A stretch of DNA of 64,000 nt from the NCBI GenBank assembly GCA_910574995.1, contig CAJTCS010000010.1, positions 1-64,000 of the forward strand, given 5' to 3'. Source of the stretch: Oscillospiraceae bacterium (GTDB lineage Bacteria > Bacillota > Clostridia > Oscillospirales > Acutalibacteraceae). Below, piece after piece: positions 5,645 through 62,857 of this stretch. Below the pieces are notes generated by a model. It ran no database searches, was not told where the DNA came from, and worked only from the letters and a program-made list of their open reading frames with translations. The position numbers and the translations under genes were made by a program. Numbering within the stretch: position 1 is the stretch's first letter; each line of letters opens with the position of its first letter.

Positions 5645-7594
5645 ATGCCAAAGATACAGGTGCTGGAAAAACAGGTGGCAGAGCTTATCGCCGCCGGGGA
5701 AGTGGTGGAGCGCCCCTCCTCGGTCATCAAGGAGCTGGTGGAAAACGCCATTGACGCCGGGGCCACGGTGGTCACGGTGGAGATACGCCGGGGCGGGGCG
5801 GCCTACATGCGGGTAACGGACAATGGCTGCGGCATCGCCCCGGAAGACGTGCCTACGGCTTTCCTGCGCCACGCCACCAGCAAGATCGTCCAGCGGGAAG
5901 ACCTGGACGCTATCGGTACCCTGGGCTTCCGGGGGGAGGCGCTGGCGGCCATCTCGGCGGTGGGGCATATCGAGCTGCTGACCAGGGCGGCGGGCCAGGA
6001 GGCCGGCCTGCGCTATACCTGCGGCGGGGAGGAAGAGCCCCTGGCAGAGGAGGCGGGATGCCCCCAGGGCACCACGATCGTGGTGCGGGACCTGTTCTTC
6101 AATACGCCGGCCCGGATGAAGTTCTTGAAAAAGGACGTGACCGAGGGCAACTCGGTGGCGGGCATCCTGGACAAGCTGGCCCTTTCCCACCCGGAGATAT
6201 CCTTCCGTTTCCTGCGGGATGGGAAGGAATGCCTGCGCAGCCCTGGGGATGGGAAGCTGCCTTCCGCGGTATACGCTGTGTATGGCAAGGAATTTTCCGC
6301 CGGGATGATCCCCGTAGACTATGCCCTGGGGGGCATACGGGTATCCGGCCTTGTCAGCAAACCCTCGGCCAGCCGGGCAAACCGGTCTATGCAAAGCTTT
6401 TTCATAAACGGCCGGTATATCCGCAGCCGTACGGCCGGGGCGGCCCTGGAAGAGGCCTGTAAGGGATGCGTGATGGTGGGGAAATTCCCCGCCTGCGTGC
6501 TGCACCTTTCCGTGGCCAGCGGGGCCGTGGATGTAAACGTACACCCGGCAAAGCTGGAGATCCGCTTCGTGAACGAGCGGCCCATTTTCGACGCGGTATA
6601 CCATGGGGTAAAGTCGGCGCTGGAGCTGGGGGACGGCCCCAAGGTGATGGGCTGGAAGCCCCAGAAGCCCGTTTTGCCCAGCCAGTCCCCCCTGGTGGAA
6701 AGGTCCGGGCGGCTGCCCCTGCCTCCCGCCGCCCCCGGGGAAGAGGCCGAGCCGGAGGTCAGCGTGCCCCGGCTGGGGACATTCCGGGACAGCCGCGCGG
6801 CTGCCCGGAAGCTGCCGGAATTCGACCAGGCGGCGCTGCGCCTGCTGGACACAGCGCCCTTGAAACGGGAAGAAGCGCCTGCGGCCATCCCCATCCAGCC
6901 GGCGCTGGAGAGCCGGCTGGATGCGCCGCCGGCAGGGGGGCGCCAAGAGGAAGGGCGGGCCGCGCCAAAGGCAGCCTTTGCCCAGCCAGGGGAAGAAGGG
7001 CAAAGGCTGGGGCCGGGGACGTTCCATGGGAAAATATTGGGGGAGGCTTTCGGTACGTATATCCTTGTAGAGCACAGCCCCCAGGCGCTGATGCTGATTG
7101 ACAAGCATGCCGCCCACGAGAGGCTGCTGTATGAGCGGCTGAAGGCCCAGCACACCGGGGGGGAGGCCCAGACTCTTTTGGAGCCTGTGCCGGTCACCCT
7201 GGACAAGGAAGAGTATACCGCCGTGCTGGCAAATGCGGAAGCCCTGTCCCAGGCGGGTTTCCTGGTGGAGGATTTTGGGCCGGGGACGGTGCTGGTGCGG
7301 GCGGCGCCCTTGCTGTTGGACGGGGAGGACGCCGCTGGGGCGCTGCAAGAGGTTGCGGGGAAGCTGGCGGAGCACAAGTCCGGGCTGACCACCCAGCATT
7401 TGGATTGGGTGTACCACAATGTAGCCTGCCGGGCGGCCATGAAAGCCGGGGACGTGACGCGGCCGGAGGAGCTGGCCGCCCTGTGCCAGAAGCTGGAGGA
7501 GAACCCCCAGGTACGGTATTGCCCCCATGGCAGGCCCGTGTACATGCTGCTGCCCCGGCGGGAAATCGAAAAACAGTTTGGCAGGGTAACGTAA
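5645..7594 (+). CDS. mutL: DNA mismatch repair protein MutL
   Basis: 649 residues, full length. The GHKL ATPase motifs are present in order: ELVENAIDAGA, DNGCGI and TLGFRGEAL in the first 100 residues. The C-terminal half holds the metal-binding endonuclease motif as DKHAAHERLLYE (about residues 485-496), the DQHA-x2-E-x4-E motif with Lys in place of Gln, and CPHGRP near residue 626. This marks it as a nicking MutL of the kind found in bacteria without MutH. The linker (about 330-460) is Pro/Ala-rich. Start ATG 5645 is preceded by AGCAGG. Confidence 0.97.
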   Translation: MPKIQVLEKQVAELIAAGEVVERPSSVIKELVENAIDAGATVVTVEIRRGGAAYMRVTDNGCGIAPEDVPTAFLRHATSKIVQREDLDAIGTLGFRGEALAAISAVGHIELLTRAAGQEAGLRYTCGGEEEPLAEEAGCPQGTTIVVRDLFFNTPARMKFLKKDVTEGNSVAGILDKLALSHPEISFRFLRDGKECLRSPGDGKLPSAVYAVYGKEFSAGMIPVDYALGGIRVSGLVSKPSASRANRSMQSFFINGRYIRSRTAGAALEEACKGCVMVGKFPACVLHLSVASGAVDVNVHPAKLEIRFVNERPIFDAVYHGVKSALELGDGPKVMGWKPQKPVLPSQSPLVERSGRLPLPPAAPGEEAEPEVSVPRLGTFRDSRAAARKLPEFDQAALRLLDTAPLKREEAPAAIPIQPALESRLDAPPAGGRQEEGRAAPKAAFAQPGEEGQRLGPGTFHGKILGEAFGTYILVEHSPQALMLIDKHAAHERLLYERLKAQHTGGEAQTLLEPVPVTLDKEEYTAVLANAEALSQAGFLVEDFGPGTVLVRAAPLLLDGEDAAGALQEVAGKLAEHKSGLTTQHLDWVYHNVACRAAMKAGDVTRPEELAALCQKLEENPQVRYCPHGRPVYMLLPRREIEKQFGRVT

Positions 7595-54453: not shown

Positions 54454-57400
54454 TCACCGCTCCTGGCGGCGGTCCTTCGGTCTGTCCTGTTTCTGACGGG
54501 GAGGCACAGGCCGTTTCAGCCCCTCCAGTACCGAGGGCCGTGGGCTCTTGGCAACAGTCTGTTCCGCTGGCGGCGCTCCCCGGTCGATGTTGAGAGCGGC
54601 ATCCAGCTCCGCAAGGCGGGCAGACTTCGCTTGCAGCTCCGCCTCCTGGGGAAAGGGCTTGCCCAGCGCGGCTTTGGTGGCGCTCTGCTGCTGATAGAGG
54701 TTCTGGAGATGGGCCTCCACCCCTTGCAAACGCTCCGGCATTTTCTCCAGCGTGTTGTCCATGCGGGTGATGTTGCCGTAAATATCGTCACTCAACTCCA
54801 CAAGATGGGTCATCTGGCCTTTCAACGTCAGCGAAGTCCGCTCAAACATCTGGGCATGGGAGATGGACAGGGTAAAGCCCCGATAGCTGCCGATCTCCTT
54901 TGTTTCGCCTACCGCCAGCTCCTTGCAGGCGGCAAGCAGGGCTTTTCCGGCCTCTTCTTTGTCGGTGAAGGTCACGCCGCTGATCTCGATCCCGGCAAAA
55001 CCCTGTTTGACCTCCGCAGCGGCGGGGGCCTCCGGTGTACCGGCGGCGGGCGGTTCCTCTTCGGCAGTTTTGGCCGGAGGCTTTTCCACAGTGATGATGG
55101 GATGGGGATGCGCCGCCAGCGTTTCCATGTCGGCCTTGAAACCGGCGATAAACTCCTGGTTCTGCTTGATCTGCTCCGGGAAATATTTCAGCAGATTGTC
55201 CTCCATCCGGTACTGCTGGCTCTGGTGTTCGGCCTTCAGCAGGCGCAGCCGGGAAACGTCTATGTCCAGGTCCATCCGCTCTTTTATCCGGGGGTCCCCG
55301 GCGCACAGGGCCTTGATTTCGGCGTAACTGAGCGCCGCCTCGTCCACGTCCTCGCAGGAACGCACGGGGGACTTAGAAGTCATGATTTGTGATATAAACT
55401 TCTGTTTTGCCTCAATAGTCTGCCACAAATACGCGTCAAAAGTCCCCTCTGTGACATAACGGAACACATGGACTTTTTTGTTTTCATTGCCCCGGCGCTC
55501 GATGCGGCCCTTGCGCTGGATAAGGTCACGGGGCCTCCACGGACAATCCAGGTCGTGTAATGCGATCAGTCGCTTTTGAATATTTGTCCCCGCTCCAAGT
55601 TTTGCCGTACTGCCAATGATGACCCGCACCAGCCCATCATTAACTTTGGAGAACAGTGCCTTTTTCTTCTGGTCGGTGTCCGCGTCATGGATAAAGGCGA
55701 TCTGCTCCGGGGGCATCCCTGCGGCGATGAGCTTTTCCCGGATGTCATCATAGATGGTAAAGGGCTTTTCAGTATCCTGCGCAAGGCCCTTTTTCTTTTT
55801 AGAGGGCTTGGCCTGGGGCGTGGAAATATCGCAGAACACGATCTGAGTCAGTTTGTCGGCCTCGCCCTCCCGCCAGAAGTGCAGGATGTTCTCGACACAG
55901 CGGTTCACCTTCGTCCCCGGTTCGTCTGGCAGCAAAGGGTCAATGATGCGCTGGTCCAGCCCCAGCTTGCGGCCATCCGAGGTTATCTTCAACATATTGT
56001 CCTCGTGGGGGTCCACAGCGCCGCCATGCACTTTGGAGGCCCGTTCGGACAGCTGCTGGACCATCGCTTTCTGATGTTCAGTCGGCTTGGATGCAACGGT
56101 ATGATATTCGACCTCCGGGGTGGGCAGATGGAGCTGGTCGGCGGTTTTCACGTCCGCGACCTCCTTGAACAGGTTCATCAGCTCCGGGAGGTTGAAGAAT
56201 TTGGCGAACCGGGTCCGGGGGCGGTAGCCGGTCCCTTCCGGGGCCAGCTCCAAAACGGTGGATGTTTCCCCGAACCGGCTGGCCCAGCAGTCGAAGTGTC
56301 CCATACCCATCTCCTGCAAACGGTTATATTGGAGATAGCGGTGAATCGTGAACATTTCTGTCATGCTGTTGGAGATTGGTGTCCCCGTGGCGAAAATAAC
56401 GCCCCGCCCGCCGGTCAGCTCGTCCAGATAGCGGCATTTTGCAAACATATCGCTGGACTTCTGGGCATCGGTAGTGGACAGACCGGCCACGTTCCGCATT
56501 TTGGTCGTCATGAACAGGTTTTTATAGAAGTCGCTCTCGTCCACAAACATCCTGTCCACGCCCAGCTGCTCAAAGGTGATAACGCTGTCTTTTTTCTGGT
56601 CTGCCCTCAGCTTTTCCAAGCGTTCCTCCAGCCGCCGTCTGGTCTTTTCCATCTGCCGGATAGAAAAGTTTTCGCCCCCCATGTACTTCAATTCCTTGAT
56701 ACCGGCGAGTATCTCCTGAATTTCATCCCGGATAATGCGCTCCTGCCGCTCATAACTGATAGGGATCTTCTCGAATTGGCTCTGGCCGATAATAACGGCG
56801 TCGTAGTCCCCAGTGGCGATGCGGGCGCAGAACTTCTTTCGGCGGGCCGGTTCAAAATCTTTCTTGGTGGTAACAAGGACATGAGCGGAGGGATACAGCC
56901 GCATAAATTCGGAGGCCCACTGCTGGATCAGGTGATTGGGGACCACGAAGATGCTTTTGTGGCACAGTCCCAGGCGCTTGCTCTCCATAGCGGCGGCGAT
57001 CATCTCGAAGGTCTTGCCAGCGCCTACCTCGTGGGCCAGGAGGGTGTTGCCGCCGTAGAGGACGTGGGCCACGGCGTTGACCTGATGGGGCTGGAGCTTG
57101 ATCTCCGGGTTCATGCCGGAGAAAACGATGTGGCTCCCGTCATACTCGCGGGGCCGGGTGCTGTTCATTTCCTCGTTGTACTGCTTGACAAGGGCCTGCC
57201 GCCGCCTGGGGTCACGCCATATCCAGTCCCGGAAAGCGTCTTTCAACGCCTGCTGTTTCTGCTGGGCCAGGGTGGTTTCCTTGCCGTTGAGTACCCGATG
57301 CTCCTTGCCGTCCAGGTCTGTTACCAGGTCGTAGATACGGACATCCCGGAGGTTCAGCGTATCTTGCAGTATCTCATAGGCGTTGGCCCTGCTGGTCCCG

Positions 57401-60400
57401 AAGGTGGTGTAGGCGGCAACATCGTGGTCGTACACAGCTCTTTTGGATGTGATCTGCCACTCCGCTGTGACCGGCGAATAATTGACCTTGATACTTCTCT
57501 GCAAGCGCCAGGGGGTATCCAGCGTTTCATACATAAACTGCTGGATGTACTTTTTATCCACCCAGGTGGCCCCCAGCCGGACCTCGATCTCGGAGGCGTC
57601 CAGGTCTTTGGGCTGGGCAGCGGTCAGGGCCTCCACGTTCTGCCTGATCTTCGCGGCGTCCTCCGGGGGCAGGATCTCCGCCATCGCCTGGGCCATGCGC
57701 AGTTTCCGCCGCACGTTGCCGGAGAGGTATTCGTCAGCGGTGACAAGGGGAAAGCGGCTCAGATCGACATACGCCCTGGGGATGCGGTCCGGGTCCTCCG
57801 CACAGCGGATGTCCCGGAAGATCACGCCGGTCAGCTCCTGCTCCAGCTGCTCCTCGGTCTTGCCGGTAAGCTGGGACATATAGGGCATATCCACTCCGGC
57901 CTTCTCCGCAATGGAAACGGCCAGGGCCTCGGATGCGGTGTCCACGCTGGTGACAGTCCGGTGAGGGCTGACGGTGCGCTTTGTGAACATATCCGCCTTG
58001 CCCTCCAGACGCCCGTTCTCGTCCACGATCTCCAGGGCGCACAGGAGGTAGTAGCCGTCATCGCGGGAAAACGCCTGCTGATTGTTTCTGGCATTGATAA
58101 GGCCAAATTTGGCGGTATAGGCGTCATAGAGCTGCTCTAACCGCTCCTGCTGCTGCCGGATGGCACTGTCGGGAACATCCTCCCGCAGCTGAAGGTCGAT
58201 CAGGTCCCGAACGCAGTCCCGCAGCTCCACCATGCCCATGACACGCTCTTTGGCGGCACCGGACAAATCCTGCTTTTCCATGATGGAATTTTCCCGGTAG
58301 TAAACATCCCCGTCTACAATGGTATAGGAGAAGTTTTTCACATTCGGGTCAGCGGGGATGGTGACACGCTCCTGTTCGGCACCTTCCTCCAGCTCAGGCG
58401 GCGCGGCCTCCCGGTACTGGCCCCGGATATACTTGATGGCATCGTGGAGCTGATCGGCCAGTTCCAGGCCCTCAATGGGGGCCACGGTGAAGTCCTGCCT
58501 GCCGTACTGGGTACTCTCGGAGGTCTGACGGCCCAAGATCATTTCCGGGTGGTCAATGAAATAGCGGTTGACGGTAAAGCCGTCCTGGTTCTCTCCAACG
58601 TGTACCCAATCAGGCATTTCAACCTGGGGCGTGTCCCGTTTCTGGAAAAACAGGATGTCCGTCACCACATCTGTCCCGGCGTTGGCCCGGAAAGCGTTAT
58701 TGGGCAGACGGATAGCGCCCAGGAGGTCAGCCCGTTCCGCAAGGTACTTCCGGGCATCCTCGCCTTTGGCATCCATGGTGTAGCGGCTGGTGACAAAAGC
58801 CACGATCCCGCCGGGGCGCACCTGGTCCATCATTTTGGCGGCGAAATAATTGTGGATGCTGAAATGGTGGCGGTTGTAGGCGCGGTCACTGACAGGGTAA
58901 TCCCCAAACGGCACATTGCCTACGGCGAGGTCATAAAAGTCCCGGCGGTCAGTGGTTTCAAATCCGGCCACGGTGATGTTGGCCTGGGGGTAAAGCTGCC
59001 GGGCGATACGGCCGGTGATACTGTCCAGCTCCACGCCGTACAGTCTGGACGCAGCCATAGCCTCCGGCAGCAGGCCGAAGAAGTTCCCCACGCCGCAGGA
59101 CGGTTCCAGGATATTGCCAGCGGTAAAGCCCATATTGCCCACGGCCTTATAGATAGCCTTGATGACGGTGGGACTGGTGTAGTGGGCATTCAGGACTGAG
59201 GCCCGCGCCGCCTCATACTCTGCGGGGGTCAGGGCGGCTTTCAGCTCCAGGTATTCATCCGCCCACTCCGGCTTGTCCGGATCAAAAGCGTCCGGCAGAC
59301 CGCCCCAGCCCACATAGCGGGAAAGCACTTCCTGTTCCGACCGGGTGGCAGAGCGGCCCTCCAGCTCAATACCCTGGAGGGTGTTGATGGCCTCCATGTT
59401 CATGCGGAACTTGGCTTTCGGTCCGCCCTCGCCCAGGTGATCGTCTGTAATGCGGAAATTTTGAGCGGCAGTCTGCTCCGGCTGGGTCTGCTCCGGTTCA
59501 TCAACGGGCAGACGCTGAACGATCACATCAAAGGGCAGGCCGTTTTTATCGCCAGGATAAATGGTAGTGGTTTCCGGCGTGACCTCCGGTGCAGGAGGCG
59601 GGTCCGGCTCCTGGGTGAACAAGTGGGCATTGCGCTCGTCCTGACGTATAGCGTCCTCGAAAAAATCCCGGCTGACGACCTGATTGTTCCAGGTGTAGGG
59701 GCCGGTGTCGATGCGTACATCCAGGTCCCCGATGTAGCCAATGGTGCCAGTAAGTTCATGGTCGCCGTATTGGAAGGAAACCTTGTCCCCCACCTGATAG
59801 GAGGGCTTACCCTCCAGCCGTACAGGGTCACGCTGGACCGGCGCATGGGTAAAGCCGTCCAATTCCTGCTGCCAGAGGGAGCGCAGCACCGGCGCGATCT
59901 GATGCCAGGAATATGCCGCGCTCGCAATTTTCACTTCATCATCGTTCAAAATCTCTATCCGCATAGAGAGGCCGGATGTGAAATAGTCCGCCATTTCGCC
60001 GGTGGAAAGCTCCGTGGTGTCTACACGGTTGCCCAGAAGTCCCGACAGCAGACCGCCCATTTCCCGATTGCCTTTTCCAGCTCGAAAATATTCGATGATC
60101 TCATGTCTGTCCTCGTCCGTCAGCAGGCCGGAGGTCAGGACTTCCCGGAAGTCCTCGTTGAATTGGCTGAGGTCAGCCGCCACAAAATCCGTAATTTGGC
60201 TGTTCCGGCTGTCCCTCAAAAGCGCAGCCATAAAGCGGTCCTTGGGTTCTGAGCGGAGTACAGGGTAGGCTTGCGTGGGGTCACGCAGCTGCACATCAAA
60301 CAGGGAAATATCCTCAATGACGTATTCTGTGCCGTCCAGATAGACCTTATCTCCCACATCGTAGGCCGGGGCCAGCGGGTCACGGGCAGGCGGGGCCGTG

Positions 60401-62628
60401 CTGTCGGGGATTGCCGCCTGGATTTCCTGCCACTGTTCATCGGAAACAGTGATCTCTACCTCATGGGCGGTATCCCCAGCGCCGATGGTGATGGTATCTC
60501 CCTCACGGGTAATAGGCTGACTGGAGAGGTCGGGGGGCTTTACGTCCGGTTCAAAAACACCTTTGTCCCGCAGTTCACGAATGACAGCAGGCGCAACGGC
60601 ATCTTCTTCAAAATAGCACCAGCCGTTTTCAGAACCGCCAGCGGCTACGGTTTCGGGGGAAAGGAGGTTGCTTGCATCCGTATCCCGCACCATGATACCG
60701 CCGTGACCGGGAGTGCTGATCTGATAGATACCCTCCGCGAGTTTCTTGCTCTCCTGCACTTTGCCCCAGGGGGAATGGTCGCCGATCTCAACTCCCCAGG
60801 GCGGCGTTTCTTCATCATACTCCGGTATGGCCTCATGGGGCGCAGACAGGGCGGCATAGGTATCGTCAATGACCTCCCGATGCAGCCGGTAGCGGAAATC
60901 GGGCATATCGTAGTACAGCCGCATAAACTCCGGTTCCGTGATGGTGAGCGCCGCCCGTTTGACAGCGGCATCGCCCTCAATGACGGCGGTTTCCCTGTCA
61001 GAATTGCGGCAGGCGTTTTGATACGGCACATCCGCCAGCACCAAATCCTGGACAACCGGCTTATAACGGTCATAGACCTCACGGACGGTGGGCTGTGCCG
61101 GGACATCCTTTTTCGGTTCCTCCGCAGCGGCCTCGCCCCGTTCTTCTTCCGGGAGAAAGCGGTCCTCCTTCACCAGATGGGCAAGGTGGCGCTGGACTTT
61201 GGACCAGGGAAGGTCAATGGCCGCTCCGTCTGCGGTGACAGGGAACGCCGGGAGGCCATCGCCGTACTCGCTGCGCAGCCACTCCGCCGTTCCCTTCTCC
61301 CGGCCATGATCGGTCATATACTGCTGCACCCGGCGCTTGCTGTCCAGGTCGCCGTTCCACTCCCGGAGGGCGGCGTCAATGTCGGCCTGGGTAATTTCCC
61401 TTGCCGGGGCAGAGGTAGGTGTGGGAGGTTCCGGGGCAGGAACAACAGAAGGACCGGGCGCTTTCACGCTCGGTCCCTCCGGGTCAGGTTCGGTATTTAG
61501 CTGTAAACCAGTTCCGCTAGAATGATCTCCTCCGCCTGGGCCTTGCAGGAGTTCATCAGACCCACCCACGCCAGGGGGTCCCTGGATTTCAGTTCCTCCG
61601 TGGCCCCCGCCGTTTTCGCCAGTGAGGGCATCATCGCCTCCAGCATCTCGTTGGCCTTGTCCTCCACCTCCAACAGGTGCTGATGTAAGGTCCCCCGTAG
61701 AGTCAAGCGGTTGAACAGACCCGGGCGGTGTTCCTTCAGAAATCTCCTGCGCATCAGTCCGTACTTGCTCAGGCTCCGGTCCGGCTGGTCCGGGAAGGTC
61801 ATCTGGGGCAGGAGAACGTCCCCCACCTGTTTGTAGGTCAGTTCCAATTCCATGTTCGTTGCTCCTTTCCGCGTGCTTTTCACGCTCATACTGCTTGATG
61901 GCTACCTCGATCTCCCGCAGGACCTGTTCGCTGCTCTGACTGATGGCCGTCCCCAGCTCTGTCACTGTGTCCAGAGTGTTGAAGTCGAACACGCTCAGAA
62001 AGTCCTCGTGCTGAAAATGGGTTTCCGGCTCCAGACCGCAGCGGGCCATAAGCGCGTAGGTGGTGCTGACGGTAGCCGCCTGCCAGAACTGCACTCCGAT
62101 GTTGACGCTATCATACCCCTCCAGGAAACTGCCGTCAACGATACGGGCCAGCTCACTTCCATGCTCCGTCCAGTAGTCCCCCGCCAGCACAGAGGCGATC
62201 TGCTCCAGCTGGTCGGCGAGTCCGCTCTCCCCGGAAACACCAAAGCGCTTTTCCAGGGCATTGGCCACAGCCTGCTGGTGTTCCGGGCGGTACTGCCACA
62301 GCCAGGGGCGGCGGGCATTCTCCTTCTCGCCGGTGTCCGACACGTCAAACACATACCGTATCTTATTGTCCCCGGTGCTGGTGTCGATGAGGGCGATCCC
62401 TTTGGCCCCCCGCATCACATACCGGCGCATCTGCTTATTCCACAGGTCGTAGTCGGCGCAGGCGGTAGCGTTCGGGCGCTGGGCGTAGATGAGAAGTTGC
62501 TCGCTAAACGGATATTTATATAATCTGGCGGCGGTCGTTAAAAAGCCGGTCCACTCCTTGTAGCTGCCAGAGATTTGCCGTGTAGCCTGCTCGGACAGCT
62601 CCAGATATTCCTGGACCTTATTCGCCAT
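54454..62628 (-). CDS. giant methylase-helicase of the conjugative element
   Basis: 2724 residues from ATG 62628 (GGAGG 9 bases upstream). The N-terminal ~250 residues contain EQLLIYAQRPNATACADYDLW, typical of these proteins. A low-complexity linker (259-377) overlaps the tnpV gene. A methyltransferase core follows, with NILEPSCGVGNFFGLL (about 1176) and NVPFGDYP (about 1238). SNF2-type helicase motifs are HEVGAGKTFEM (about 1866), DESDFYKN (about 2029) and IQRKGRIERRGN (about 2373). The C-terminus is coiled coil plus a PSVLEGLK basic tail. It is thought to protect or process incoming element DNA; that role is unproven. Confidence 0.9.
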   Translation of the reverse strand: MANKVQEYLELSEQATRQISGSYKEWTGFLTTAARLYKYPFSEQLLIYAQRPNATACADYDLWNKQMRRYVMRGAKGIALIDTSTGDNKIRYVFDVSDTGEKENARRPWLWQYRPEHQQAVANALEKRFGVSGESGLADQLEQIASVLAGDYWTEHGSELARIVDGSFLEGYDSVNIGVQFWQAATVSTTYALMARCGLEPETHFQHEDFLSVFDFNTLDTVTELGTAISQSSEQVLREIEVAIKQYEREKHAERSNEHGIGTDLQTGGGRSPAPDDLPGPAGPEPEQVRTDAQEISEGTPPGSVQPLDSTGDLTSAPVGGGGQGQRDAGGDDALTGENGGGHGGTEIQGPPGVGGSDELLQGPGGGDHSSGTGLQLNTEPDPEGPSVKAPGPSVVPAPEPPTPTSAPAREITQADIDAALREWNGDLDSKRRVQQYMTDHGREKGTAEWLRSEYGDGLPAFPVTADGAAIDLPWSKVQRHLAHLVKEDRFLPEEERGEAAAEEPKKDVPAQPTVREVYDRYKPVVQDLVLADVPYQNACRNSDRETAVIEGDAAVKRAALTITEPEFMRLYYDMPDFRYRLHREVIDDTYAALSAPHEAIPEYDEETPPWGVEIGDHSPWGKVQESKKLAEGIYQISTPGHGGIMVRDTDASNLLSPETVAAGGSENGWCYFEEDAVAPAVIRELRDKGVFEPDVKPPDLSSQPITREGDTITIGAGDTAHEVEITVSDEQWQEIQAAIPDSTAPPARDPLAPAYDVGDKVYLDGTEYVIEDISLFDVQLRDPTQAYPVLRSEPKDRFMAALLRDSRNSQITDFVAADLSQFNEDFREVLTSGLLTDEDRHEIIEYFRAGKGNREMGGLLSGLLGNRVDTTELSTGEMADYFTSGLSMRIEILNDDEVKIASAAYSWHQIAPVLRSLWQQELDGFTHAPVQRDPVRLEGKPSYQVGDKVSFQYGDHELTGTIGYIGDLDVRIDTGPYTWNNQVVSRDFFEDAIRQDERNAHLFTQEPDPPPAPEVTPETTTIYPGDKNGLPFDVIVQRLPVDEPEQTQPEQTAAQNFRITDDHLGEGGPKAKFRMNMEAINTLQGIELEGRSATRSEQEVLSRYVGWGGLPDAFDPDKPEWADEYLELKAALTPAEYEAARASVLNAHYTSPTVIKAIYKAVGNMGFTAGNILEPSCGVGNFFGLLPEAMAASRLYGVELDSITGRIARQLYPQANITVAGFETTDRRDFYDLAVGNVPFGDYPVSDRAYNRHHFSIHNYFAAKMMDQVRPGGIVAFVTSRYTMDAKGEDARKYLAERADLLGAIRLPNNAFRANAGTDVVTDILFFQKRDTPQVEMPDWVHVGENQDGFTVNRYFIDHPEMILGRQTSESTQYGRQDFTVAPIEGLELADQLHDAIKYIRGQYREAAPPELEEGAEQERVTIPADPNVKNFSYTIVDGDVYYRENSIMEKQDLSGAAKERVMGMVELRDCVRDLIDLQLREDVPDSAIRQQQERLEQLYDAYTAKFGLINARNNQQAFSRDDGYYLLCALEIVDENGRLEGKADMFTKRTVSPHRTVTSVDTASEALAVSIAEKAGVDMPYMSQLTGKTEEQLEQELTGVIFRDIRCAEDPDRIPRAYVDLSRFPLVTADEYLSGNVRRKLRMAQAMAEILPPEDAAKIRQNVEALTAAQPKDLDASEIEVRLGATWVDKKYIQQFMYETLDTPWRLQRSIKVNYSPVTAEWQITSKRAVYDHDVAAYTTFGTSRANAYEILQDTLNLRDVRIYDLVTDLDGKEHRVLNGKETTLAQQKQQALKDAFRDWIWRDPRRRQALVKQYNEEMNSTRPREYDGSHIVFSGMNPEIKLQPHQVNAVAHVLYGGNTLLAHEVGAGKTFEMIAAAMESKRLGLCHKSIFVVPNHLIQQWASEFMRLYPSAHVLVTTKKDFEPARRKKFCARIATGDYDAVIIGQSQFEKIPISYERQERIIRDEIQEILAGIKELKYMGGENFSIRQMEKTRRRLEERLEKLRADQKKDSVITFEQLGVDRMFVDESDFYKNLFMTTKMRNVAGLSTTDAQKSSDMFAKCRYLDELTGGRGVIFATGTPISNSMTEMFTIHRYLQYNRLQEMGMGHFDCWASRFGETSTVLELAPEGTGYRPRTRFAKFFNLPELMNLFKEVADVKTADQLHLPTPEVEYHTVASKPTEHQKAMVQQLSERASKVHGGAVDPHEDNMLKITSDGRKLGLDQRIIDPLLPDEPGTKVNRCVENILHFWREGEADKLTQIVFCDISTPQAKPSKKKKGLAQDTEKPFTIYDDIREKLIAAGMPPEQIAFIHDADTDQKKKALFSKVNDGLVRVIIGSTAKLGAGTNIQKRLIALHDLDCPWRPRDLIQRKGRIERRGNENKKVHVFRYVTEGTFDAYLWQTIEAKQKFISQIMTSKSPVRSCEDVDEAALSYAEIKALCAGDPRIKERMDLDIDVSRLRLLKAEHQSQQYRMEDNLLKYFPEQIKQNQEFIAGFKADMETLAAHPHPIITVEKPPAKTAEEEPPAAGTPEAPAAAEVKQGFAGIEISGVTFTDKEEAGKALLAACKELAVGETKEIGSYRGFTLSISHAQMFERTSLTLKGQMTHLVELSDDIYGNITRMDNTLEKMPERLQGVEAHLQNLYQQQSATKAALGKPFPQEAELQAKSARLAELDAALNIDRGAPPAEQTVAKSPRPSVLEGLKRPVPPRQKQDRPKDRRQER
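61497..61853 (-). CDS. tnpV: TnpV protein, nested in another frame of the helicase gene
   Basis: 118 residues from ATG 61853, preceded by AAAGGAG 8 bases upstream, wholly inside the helicase gene in the +1 frame of the same strand. The product matches transposon TnpV: TYKQVGDVLLPQMTFPDQP, KYGLMRRRFLKEHRPGL and AEEIILAELVYS. In the helicase frame the same bases give only a Gly/Pro/Glu-rich linker. So tnpV is the frame with normal protein character. TnpV function is unknown even in Tn4451-like elements where it was named. Confidence 0.88.
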   Translation of the reverse strand: MELELTYKQVGDVLLPQMTFPDQPDRSLSKYGLMRRRFLKEHRPGLFNRLTLRGTLHQHLLEVEDKANEMLEAMMPSLAKTAGATEELKSRDPLAWVGLMNSCKAQAEEIILAELVYS

Positions 62629-62857
62629 AGGCAGAGTCCTCCGGGTCGAAGTCCGGGTAGAGGTCCACGGCCTCAAAGTCGGCATCGGTCATGCGCCGCA
62701 GCTTGCCGAGGGCGCTGTCGGTCAGCTCCCGCAGATCATCCTCGTCCGGCTGCAAATAGCCCCGCATATCCTCCAGGGCGGCGATCAGGCCGGTGCGCGT
62801 ACCGGAACCGCTGTAAATGCACATCAGGCTCCGTTCCTCAAATGTAAATTCGTTCAT
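62618..62857 (-). CDS. transposon-transfer assisting protein (TTRAP)
   Basis: 79 residues. FTFEERSLMCIYSGSGTRTGLI and LGKLRRMTDADFEAVDLYPDF match the TTRAP family of small acidic proteins in conjugative transposons. It overlaps the upstream gene by four bases (ATGA), and its end overlaps the helicase start by 11 bases, so the three are translated as a unit. Its exact job in transfer is not known. Confidence 0.85.
   Translation of the reverse strand: MNEFTFEERSLMCIYSGSGTRTGLIAALEDMRGYLQPDEDDLRELTDSALGKLRRMTDADFEAVDLYPDFDPEDSAYGE

Follow-up and report, generated by a model that had tools for sequence, protein, structure and literature searches.

Long genes nested on the same strand of bacterial DNA are usually taken to be annotation errors or young orphans, and the locus described here raises the question of whether one stretch of about 357 bp can code for two proteins. 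It lies in the window, a 64,000-nucleotide stretch from an Oscillospiraceae bacterium (GCA_910574995.1, contig CAJTCS010000010.1, positions 1 to 64,000), where the gene tnpV (61497..61853, minus strand; 118 codons, ATG start, TAA stop) is found inside a methylase/SNF2-helicase (DarB-like) gene of 2724 codons and a stop (54454..62628, minus strand). We consider it very probable that the shared DNA does encode both proteins, that the nesting arose once and has been maintained by selection on both frames, and that tnpV was later released.

A tnpV gene within a helicase gene

The original prediction proposed a 118-codon tnpV with its own Shine-Dalgarno sequence (SD) in the +1 frame of the 2724-codon helicase gene, on the same strand, and this was confirmed by coordinates and Pfam. 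The tnpV start falls on helicase nucleotide 775 (counting from 0), which gives the +1 frame, and the inner open reading frame (ORF) lies entirely within the outer one, which was itself defined by ORF, Pfam and alignment; a further in-frame ATG at 62685 would extend the helicase to 2743 codons. The tnpV product matched the Pfam family TnpV (PF14198) with E 5.7e-37 and 126.5 bits (cut-off 27), residues 6–116 aligning with positions 1–111 of 111. When the helicase protein was kept and its codons were shuffled synonymously the +1 frame remained open in 10–35% of cases, and an open frame alone would thus not exclude chance, but the homology of tnpV alone does. A chance ORF was ruled out by this Pfam score together with the substitution pattern.

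The SD of tnpV, AAAGGAG (61862..61868, minus strand), is situated 8 nt before the ATG, within the helicase codons GAA AGG AGC (Glu-Arg-Ser). The start of tnpV roughly coincides with the end of the N-terminal domain of the helicase, from now on referred to as HelN, a name coined in the present analysis (about 256 aa, 61861..62628, minus strand), and the tnpV DNA encodes helicase residues 259–377. HelN gave no match in Pfam. In an AlphaFold2 model of helicase residues 1–433 the first ~255 residues, and thereby HelN, were mostly predicted as ordered with high confidence, and residues 260–411 (61396..61851, minus strand), which span the overlap, had pLDDT values below 50. The AlphaFold2 model of TnpV, a beta hairpin with helices, reached a pLDDT of 89.5, so that one and the same DNA is predicted to encode a structured protein, TnpV, in one frame and a disordered linker of the helicase in the other. 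Across the pooled nested copies, the overlap as read in the helicase frame was enriched in G, P and D and depleted in C, M, W, F, K, Y and I relative to the N-terminal domain, and the disordered linker may be a by-product of the code of another protein.

Selection on both frames and the start signals of tnpV

Selection acts on both frames of the overlap. From 120 distinct nested copies three without HelN by the cut-off and four whose HelN contained stops or N were dropped, leaving 113 sequences on a HelN tree. Within HelN the changes per site at helicase codon positions 1, 2 and 3 were 12.9, 9.4 and 27.0, while in the overlap they were 12.9, 9.8 and 20.3 at positions 1, 2 and 3 of the tnpV frame; the codon periodicity switches to that of tnpV and helicase position 3 turns slowest. 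A comparison of the window with its nearest relative (L038) revealed differences at helicase third positions in 10/119 codons of the overlap, 59/258 of HelN and 240/574 after the overlap (Fisher tests, 5e-4 and 8e-14). The fourfold sites of nested tnpV are in turn slower than those of HelN (20.3 vs 26.9, p 0.0015; 17 and 49 columns) and favour G (0.58 vs 0.31). The Enterococcus pairs were near-identical: their nested ORFs showed 6 and 7 differences.

The helicase frame was also compared between loci sorted by the presence of HelN, which avoids the problem that nested copies are otherwise defined by an open helicase frame. Among intact TnpV entries from all loci the frame was open in 158/158 with HelN upstream and closed in 74/75 without it, the exception (L021) being truncated by a contig end. 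An earlier count of distinct proteins (n = 205) gave 132 nested with HelN, one nested without, 72 free and none free with HelN. In free copies the helicase frame contained 1–17 stops (36/36, including L053, a possible decaying nest). When the TnpV protein was kept and its codons were shuffled, the helicase frame stayed open in 0.25% of shuffles with HelN codon usage and in 0.07% with that of the free copies. At tnpV third positions before AA, AG or GA, where it would create a helicase stop, T was absent from all 2033 fourfold and 752 NNY contexts of the nested copies, compared to 18% and 48% T in the same contexts of free copies, but this restates the open frame by which nested copies were defined. 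The G preference and the slower change at fourfold sites do not follow from that definition.

The SD and a promoter-like sequence are kept at the synonymous level. The codon forming the SD core was AGG in 98/117 copies and in 98/98 where the residue is Arg, against 7.9% of 1996 Arg codons in HelN, and an ATG was found near the profile start in 137/137 nested entries, by a rule that favours ATG. Further upstream, a -35-like TTGACG (62133..62138, minus strand; HelN codons 164–166) and a -10-like TATGAT (62110..62115, minus strand) form the pair TTGACG-N17-TATGAT (62138-62110), which precedes the tnpV start codon by 256 nt. HelN codons 164–165 contain TTGAC and codon 163 directly precedes it, and residues 163–165 show the fewest synonymous changes among 159 testable HelN columns (Ile ATC 74/74, Val GTT 75/77, Asp GAC 73/76; GTT makes up 24% of Val codons across HelN). 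Synonymous change was also fairly low at the -10 residues (Tyr TAT 61/78, Asp GAT 86/101). All 70 sequences carrying the protein motif of this region reached at least 9 of 12 matches (null 25%), 53 reached at least 10 (null 4%) and 59 had the pair at exactly 256 nt; among the other 46 sequences, lacking the motif, 23 reached 9 matches (null 23%). By a looser rule the pair was present near -256 in 76/117 copies. This conservation suggests that the internal promoter is functional.

We propose that ribosomes engaged on the helicase read through the overlap in frame 0, which would yield a flexible, low-complexity linker joining the N-terminal domain to the rest of the protein, and that a second start, an ATG with its own SD, would let the same DNA produce TnpV as a compact protein of a beta hairpin and helices. 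The sigma-A-like promoter within HelN would serve this second start in about two thirds of the copies examined. Judged from the sequences, both frames are probably translated, and edits or insertions in these helicase genes may affect two proteins.

Spread, origin and probable release of the nested gene

Using the TnpV of the window as query, matches were found in 154 of 300 genomes of the family, and in 26 of 30 loci fetched (window included) the helicase frame was open across tnpV, in the other four not. To obtain loci not chosen by tnpV, a HelN alignment of 17 rows was scanned over a genome-contig collection of 84,980 species and the best 80 of at least 574 relatives were taken. This revealed tnpV-coding sequence in the identical place and frame in 80/80 loci, 78 of them intact, with one (L093) truncated by a contig end and one (L104) with both frames broken. 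A broken tnpV frame beside an intact linker, the pattern that would speak against overprinting, was found in 0/80. The record titles of nested loci include Ruminococcus, Roseburia, Blautia, Holdemania, Oscillibacter and Collinsella. HelN matched in 30/398 genomes of a phylum sample; among 30 loci fetched, a subset of the places found, all 15 with HelN at 98 bits or more were nested (window included), and among the 15 whose HelN match was shorter or weaker a single locus (L146, read longer as L193) has a weak nested TnpV. Further nested cases were located on plasmids of Cohnella (L204), Monoglobus (L215, and L118 with a broken N-domain) and, as a weak match, Enterococcus faecalis (L208), the frame of the latter being present in 26 E. 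faecalis plasmid records at 97.9% or more. P0002, sought in 299 genomes, gave no match. The spread rules out a young insertion confined to the present strain and extends the nesting far beyond the scope of the original prediction; its breadth and the internal promoter are newly seen. A named protein family is thus coded out of frame within another gene across many bacterial lineages, with a promoter and a ribosome site conserved at the synonymous level.

The distances of HelN and nested TnpV are correlated (r = 0.856 over 67 of 76 thinned nested rows, the best of 2000 permutations reaching 0.296), and this co-divergence, together with the substitution pattern and the synonymously fixed SD, supports the earlier view of a true overprinting case. 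On a tree of the helicase core (37 rows, Vibrio phage DarB-like outgroup), a quick tree with some long branches and an open fork holding L192, which lacks tnpV, and L193, the distribution of nested tnpV requires two changes, interpreted as a single gain and a single loss, the latter among Lactobacillales (L209, L210, L214). In an unrooted TnpV tree (97 rows, 49 nested and 48 free, after thinning at 72% identity and exclusion of six distant loci) the nested and free labels switch seven times (bootstrap 6–8), four of the switches being forced by well-supported branches. Taken together the trees suggest a single ancient nesting followed by several later switches. As nested copies share a single site and a single frame, repeated release appears likelier than repeated insertion, and since free tnpV occurs at several places within the nested tree, release has probably taken place more than once. 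The single nesting would predate the split between the helicases of these Clostridia elements and those of the Cohnella and Enterococcus plasmids, selection on both frames would have kept it, and some of the freed genes would now stand beside genes for serine recombinases or type IV secretion system (T4SS) coupling proteins. Of the two origins first offered, tnpV landing in a helicase ancestor or using the linker as a safe harbour, neither was proved, and the data favour one ancient nesting.

The suggestion that the two proteins would be locked together holds for the nested lineage, where the helicase frame is always open behind HelN, but not for the family, in which free-standing members exist, and in other lineages the lock has therefore opened or was never closed. 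A class-wide Pfam search found TnpV in 140/391 genomes. Among six genes examined upstream of free tnpV were those of large serine recombinases (L120, L154, L016), coupling proteins (L156, L013) and an RNA methyltransferase (L173), and on a C. coli plasmid an annotated recombinase gene overlaps tnpV by 4 nt. A search for decayed helicase flanks beside free tnpV gave no match in 49/51 loci; the two that matched were L162, with a motor fragment, and L053, which also carries a nested copy. With many homologues and free-standing controls, the gene pair offers a natural system for measuring simultaneous selection on two frames.

Several observations weigh against a single, selectively maintained nesting. 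Free copies are common and predominate when the search is led by TnpV instead of HelN: only 13/40 lower-ranked family hits were nested (27/40 free), as were 2/29 newly fetched loci of the class-wide search (27/29 free) and 7/19 loci on viral contigs (12/19 free). A constraint placing the free copies in one clade was marginally rejected (p 0.0425, 105 rows), on a TnpV alignment of only ~120 columns. The helicase frame is free of stops in 120/120 nested copies, which is partly a matter of definition, and shuffles with the codon usage of the nested copies themselves, a partly circular choice, leave it open in 6%. Starts were located with a preference for ATG, 18/120 nested copies lack an SD by the rule applied, and 41/117 lack the promoter at -256; in these a pair is often found nearer the ATG (-110 to -20), 15 of them reaching 9 matches (null 16%), a modest signal. 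The 17 rows of the HelN query derive from helicases first located through tnpV, and many of the 80 loci, being the best of at least 574 relatives, are close kin. The remotest of the nested cases match weakly (iE 1.6e-5 for Enterococcus L208 and 1.4e-7 for L193), and the related helicases L192 (partial HelN) and L210 (HelN trace) show no tnpV. Finally, two HelN ORFs without tnpV (L200:1859-3064 and L201; 402 and 333 codons) are found in the window's own genome, possibly representing the ancestral form of the domain.

Four other explanations were considered. Repeated insertion of tnpV into one helicase site, instead of a single nesting with later release, would account for the abundance of free copies and for their interleaving with nested ones (7 changes, 4 forced), and parts of one report describe TnpV elements in snf2 genes of Streptococcus suis integrative and conjugative elements (ICEs; PMC9815147); the one site and frame across 80 loci, the co-divergence of HelN and TnpV and the mere two changes on the helicase-core tree nevertheless render it improbable. 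Another possibility is that only tnpV is real at the overlap, HelN and the helicase core being distinct genes, with the helicase frame left untranslated over tnpV. The table of the Monoglobus plasmid does list TnpV and an SNF2 gene start after it, though the frame is open through both, and we hold this explanation to be very improbable given the helicase frame that is open or closed according to HelN, the frame offset identical in 80/80 loci and the slow, G-favouring fourfold sites of nested tnpV.

The converse, in which the helicase alone is translated and tnpV is the fossil of an old insertion, draws on the fact that the tnpV frame by itself would remain open fairly often. A fossil would not, however, maintain a 118-aa family at ~47% mean pair identity, and the substitution periodicity tracking tnpV, the ATG at its expected place and the SD and promoter conserved at synonymous level leave this explanation hardly credible. 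The same low probability is given to TnpV being made as a HelN-TnpV fusion through ribosomal frameshifting and not from its own start: the tnpV frame of many copies stays open for a stretch upstream of the ATG (median ~110 nt), but 17/120 copies have an in-frame stop within 30 nt upstream, the nearest at 0 nt, and both the SD and the promoter are conserved.

Products, relatives and surroundings of the locus

In Tn4451 TnpV has been postulated to act in excision, according to the parts of PMC3158075 consulted, and a SNF2 helicase gene is described in passages of PMC7168690 and PMC5704250 as a target of integrative and mobilizable elements (IMEs). The likeliest role for TnpV, though put at less than even odds, would be to assist excision or transfer of the element as an accessory factor produced alongside the conjugation helicase. 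A lambda-Xis-like factor, as postulated for Tn4451 (PMC3158075, in part), was rejected: the model shows a hairpin with helices, and a title cited in PMC5704250 names TnpX as the sole transposon protein required for Tn4451/3 transposition. The TnpV model had no fold match in the Protein Data Bank (PDB) at E 0.001 or better, and neither had that of HelN; the TnpV sequence gave a best E of 0.16 against the PDB, and a viral fold library a best E of 0.67. This last match (model m65d003eab073) was to a 1093-aa piece of the long viral protein Q8W6J4, with probability 0.97. Homologues carry a short motif (roughly EQI..I.EAES...PSAFS) in the disordered stretch after the overlap, and the window (61396-61496) retains little of it.

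The present tnpV resembles those of Tn4451 and Tn6104/6105/6106 (PF14198) in sequence family and length. The tnpV genes of these elements are described as separate genes in the portions of PMC3158075 consulted, while the one studied here lies inside a helicase gene and has its start signals in helicase sequence. The helicase core can be aligned with SNF2/COG4646 methylase-helicases of Tn5252- and Tn1549-type ICEs and with phage DarB-like proteins, the motor with P1 DarB and its phage relatives at 25–44%. Above the Pfam cut-off were SNF2-rel_dom and Helicase_C, the Eco57I methylase model falling below it. Unlike the present helicase, the Vibrio phage DarB-like protein L213 and the streptococcal SNF2 proteins L209 and L214 have no HelN match and no nested tnpV. 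A search of the open-access literature brought up no description of a tnpV lying within a helicase gene.

Lambda Rz/Rz1 and Bacillus srfAB/comS are same-strand nested pairs and, like tnpV and the helicase, consist of a short gene wholly within a longer one in another frame; unlike them, the tnpV family also lives alone, its outer frame is predicted to be disordered and the pair spans many families. The E. coli gene laoB is reportedly also overprinted but antiparallel, whereas the present pair is same-strand and widely conserved. It is conceivable, though rather unlikely, that the entire TnpV family has its home in the helicase gene, born there by overprinting or settled very early, with the free genes, including those of resistance transposons and IMEs, as later escapees. 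If so, the nested gene would be a long-term reservoir of a mobile gene family.

Two loci with free copies deserve mention. In L162 a free tnpV is situated ~2.3 kb from the motor fragment of a helicase, an arrangement that resembles a TnpV-bearing element lodged in a helicase gene. L053 contains a second tnpV (49-355) with two helicase-frame stops yet nested-like G-rich third positions (G 0.62); it may be a nest that was released recently or is decaying.

Around the helicase gene of the window, a TTRAP-family gene (62618..62857, minus strand; ORF list and Pfam) overlaps its start by 11 nt, with a YodL/DUF4316 gene also upstream and DUF3849 downstream, and from these neighbours we read the setting as a conjugative element. 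A large serine recombinase adjoining tnpV, as in the Tn4451-type setting, was not found in a scan limited to the six ORFs of the locus (TnpV, helicase, two TTRAP, YodL/DUF4316 and DUF3849).

Annotation at times lists only one partner of the pair, a conflict that touches L215, L118 and L204. In L215 (3697-10514) the table gives TnpV and an SNF2 gene starting only at 5946, the SNF2 frame being open from 2835, and in the 26 E. faecalis records the features listed under the nested frame never name TnpV; the plasmid gene table is incomplete. The window's own genome has seven TnpV matches, of which one is partial and another contains a stop, and in another of its copies (L005) HelN has stops and tnpV is intact.

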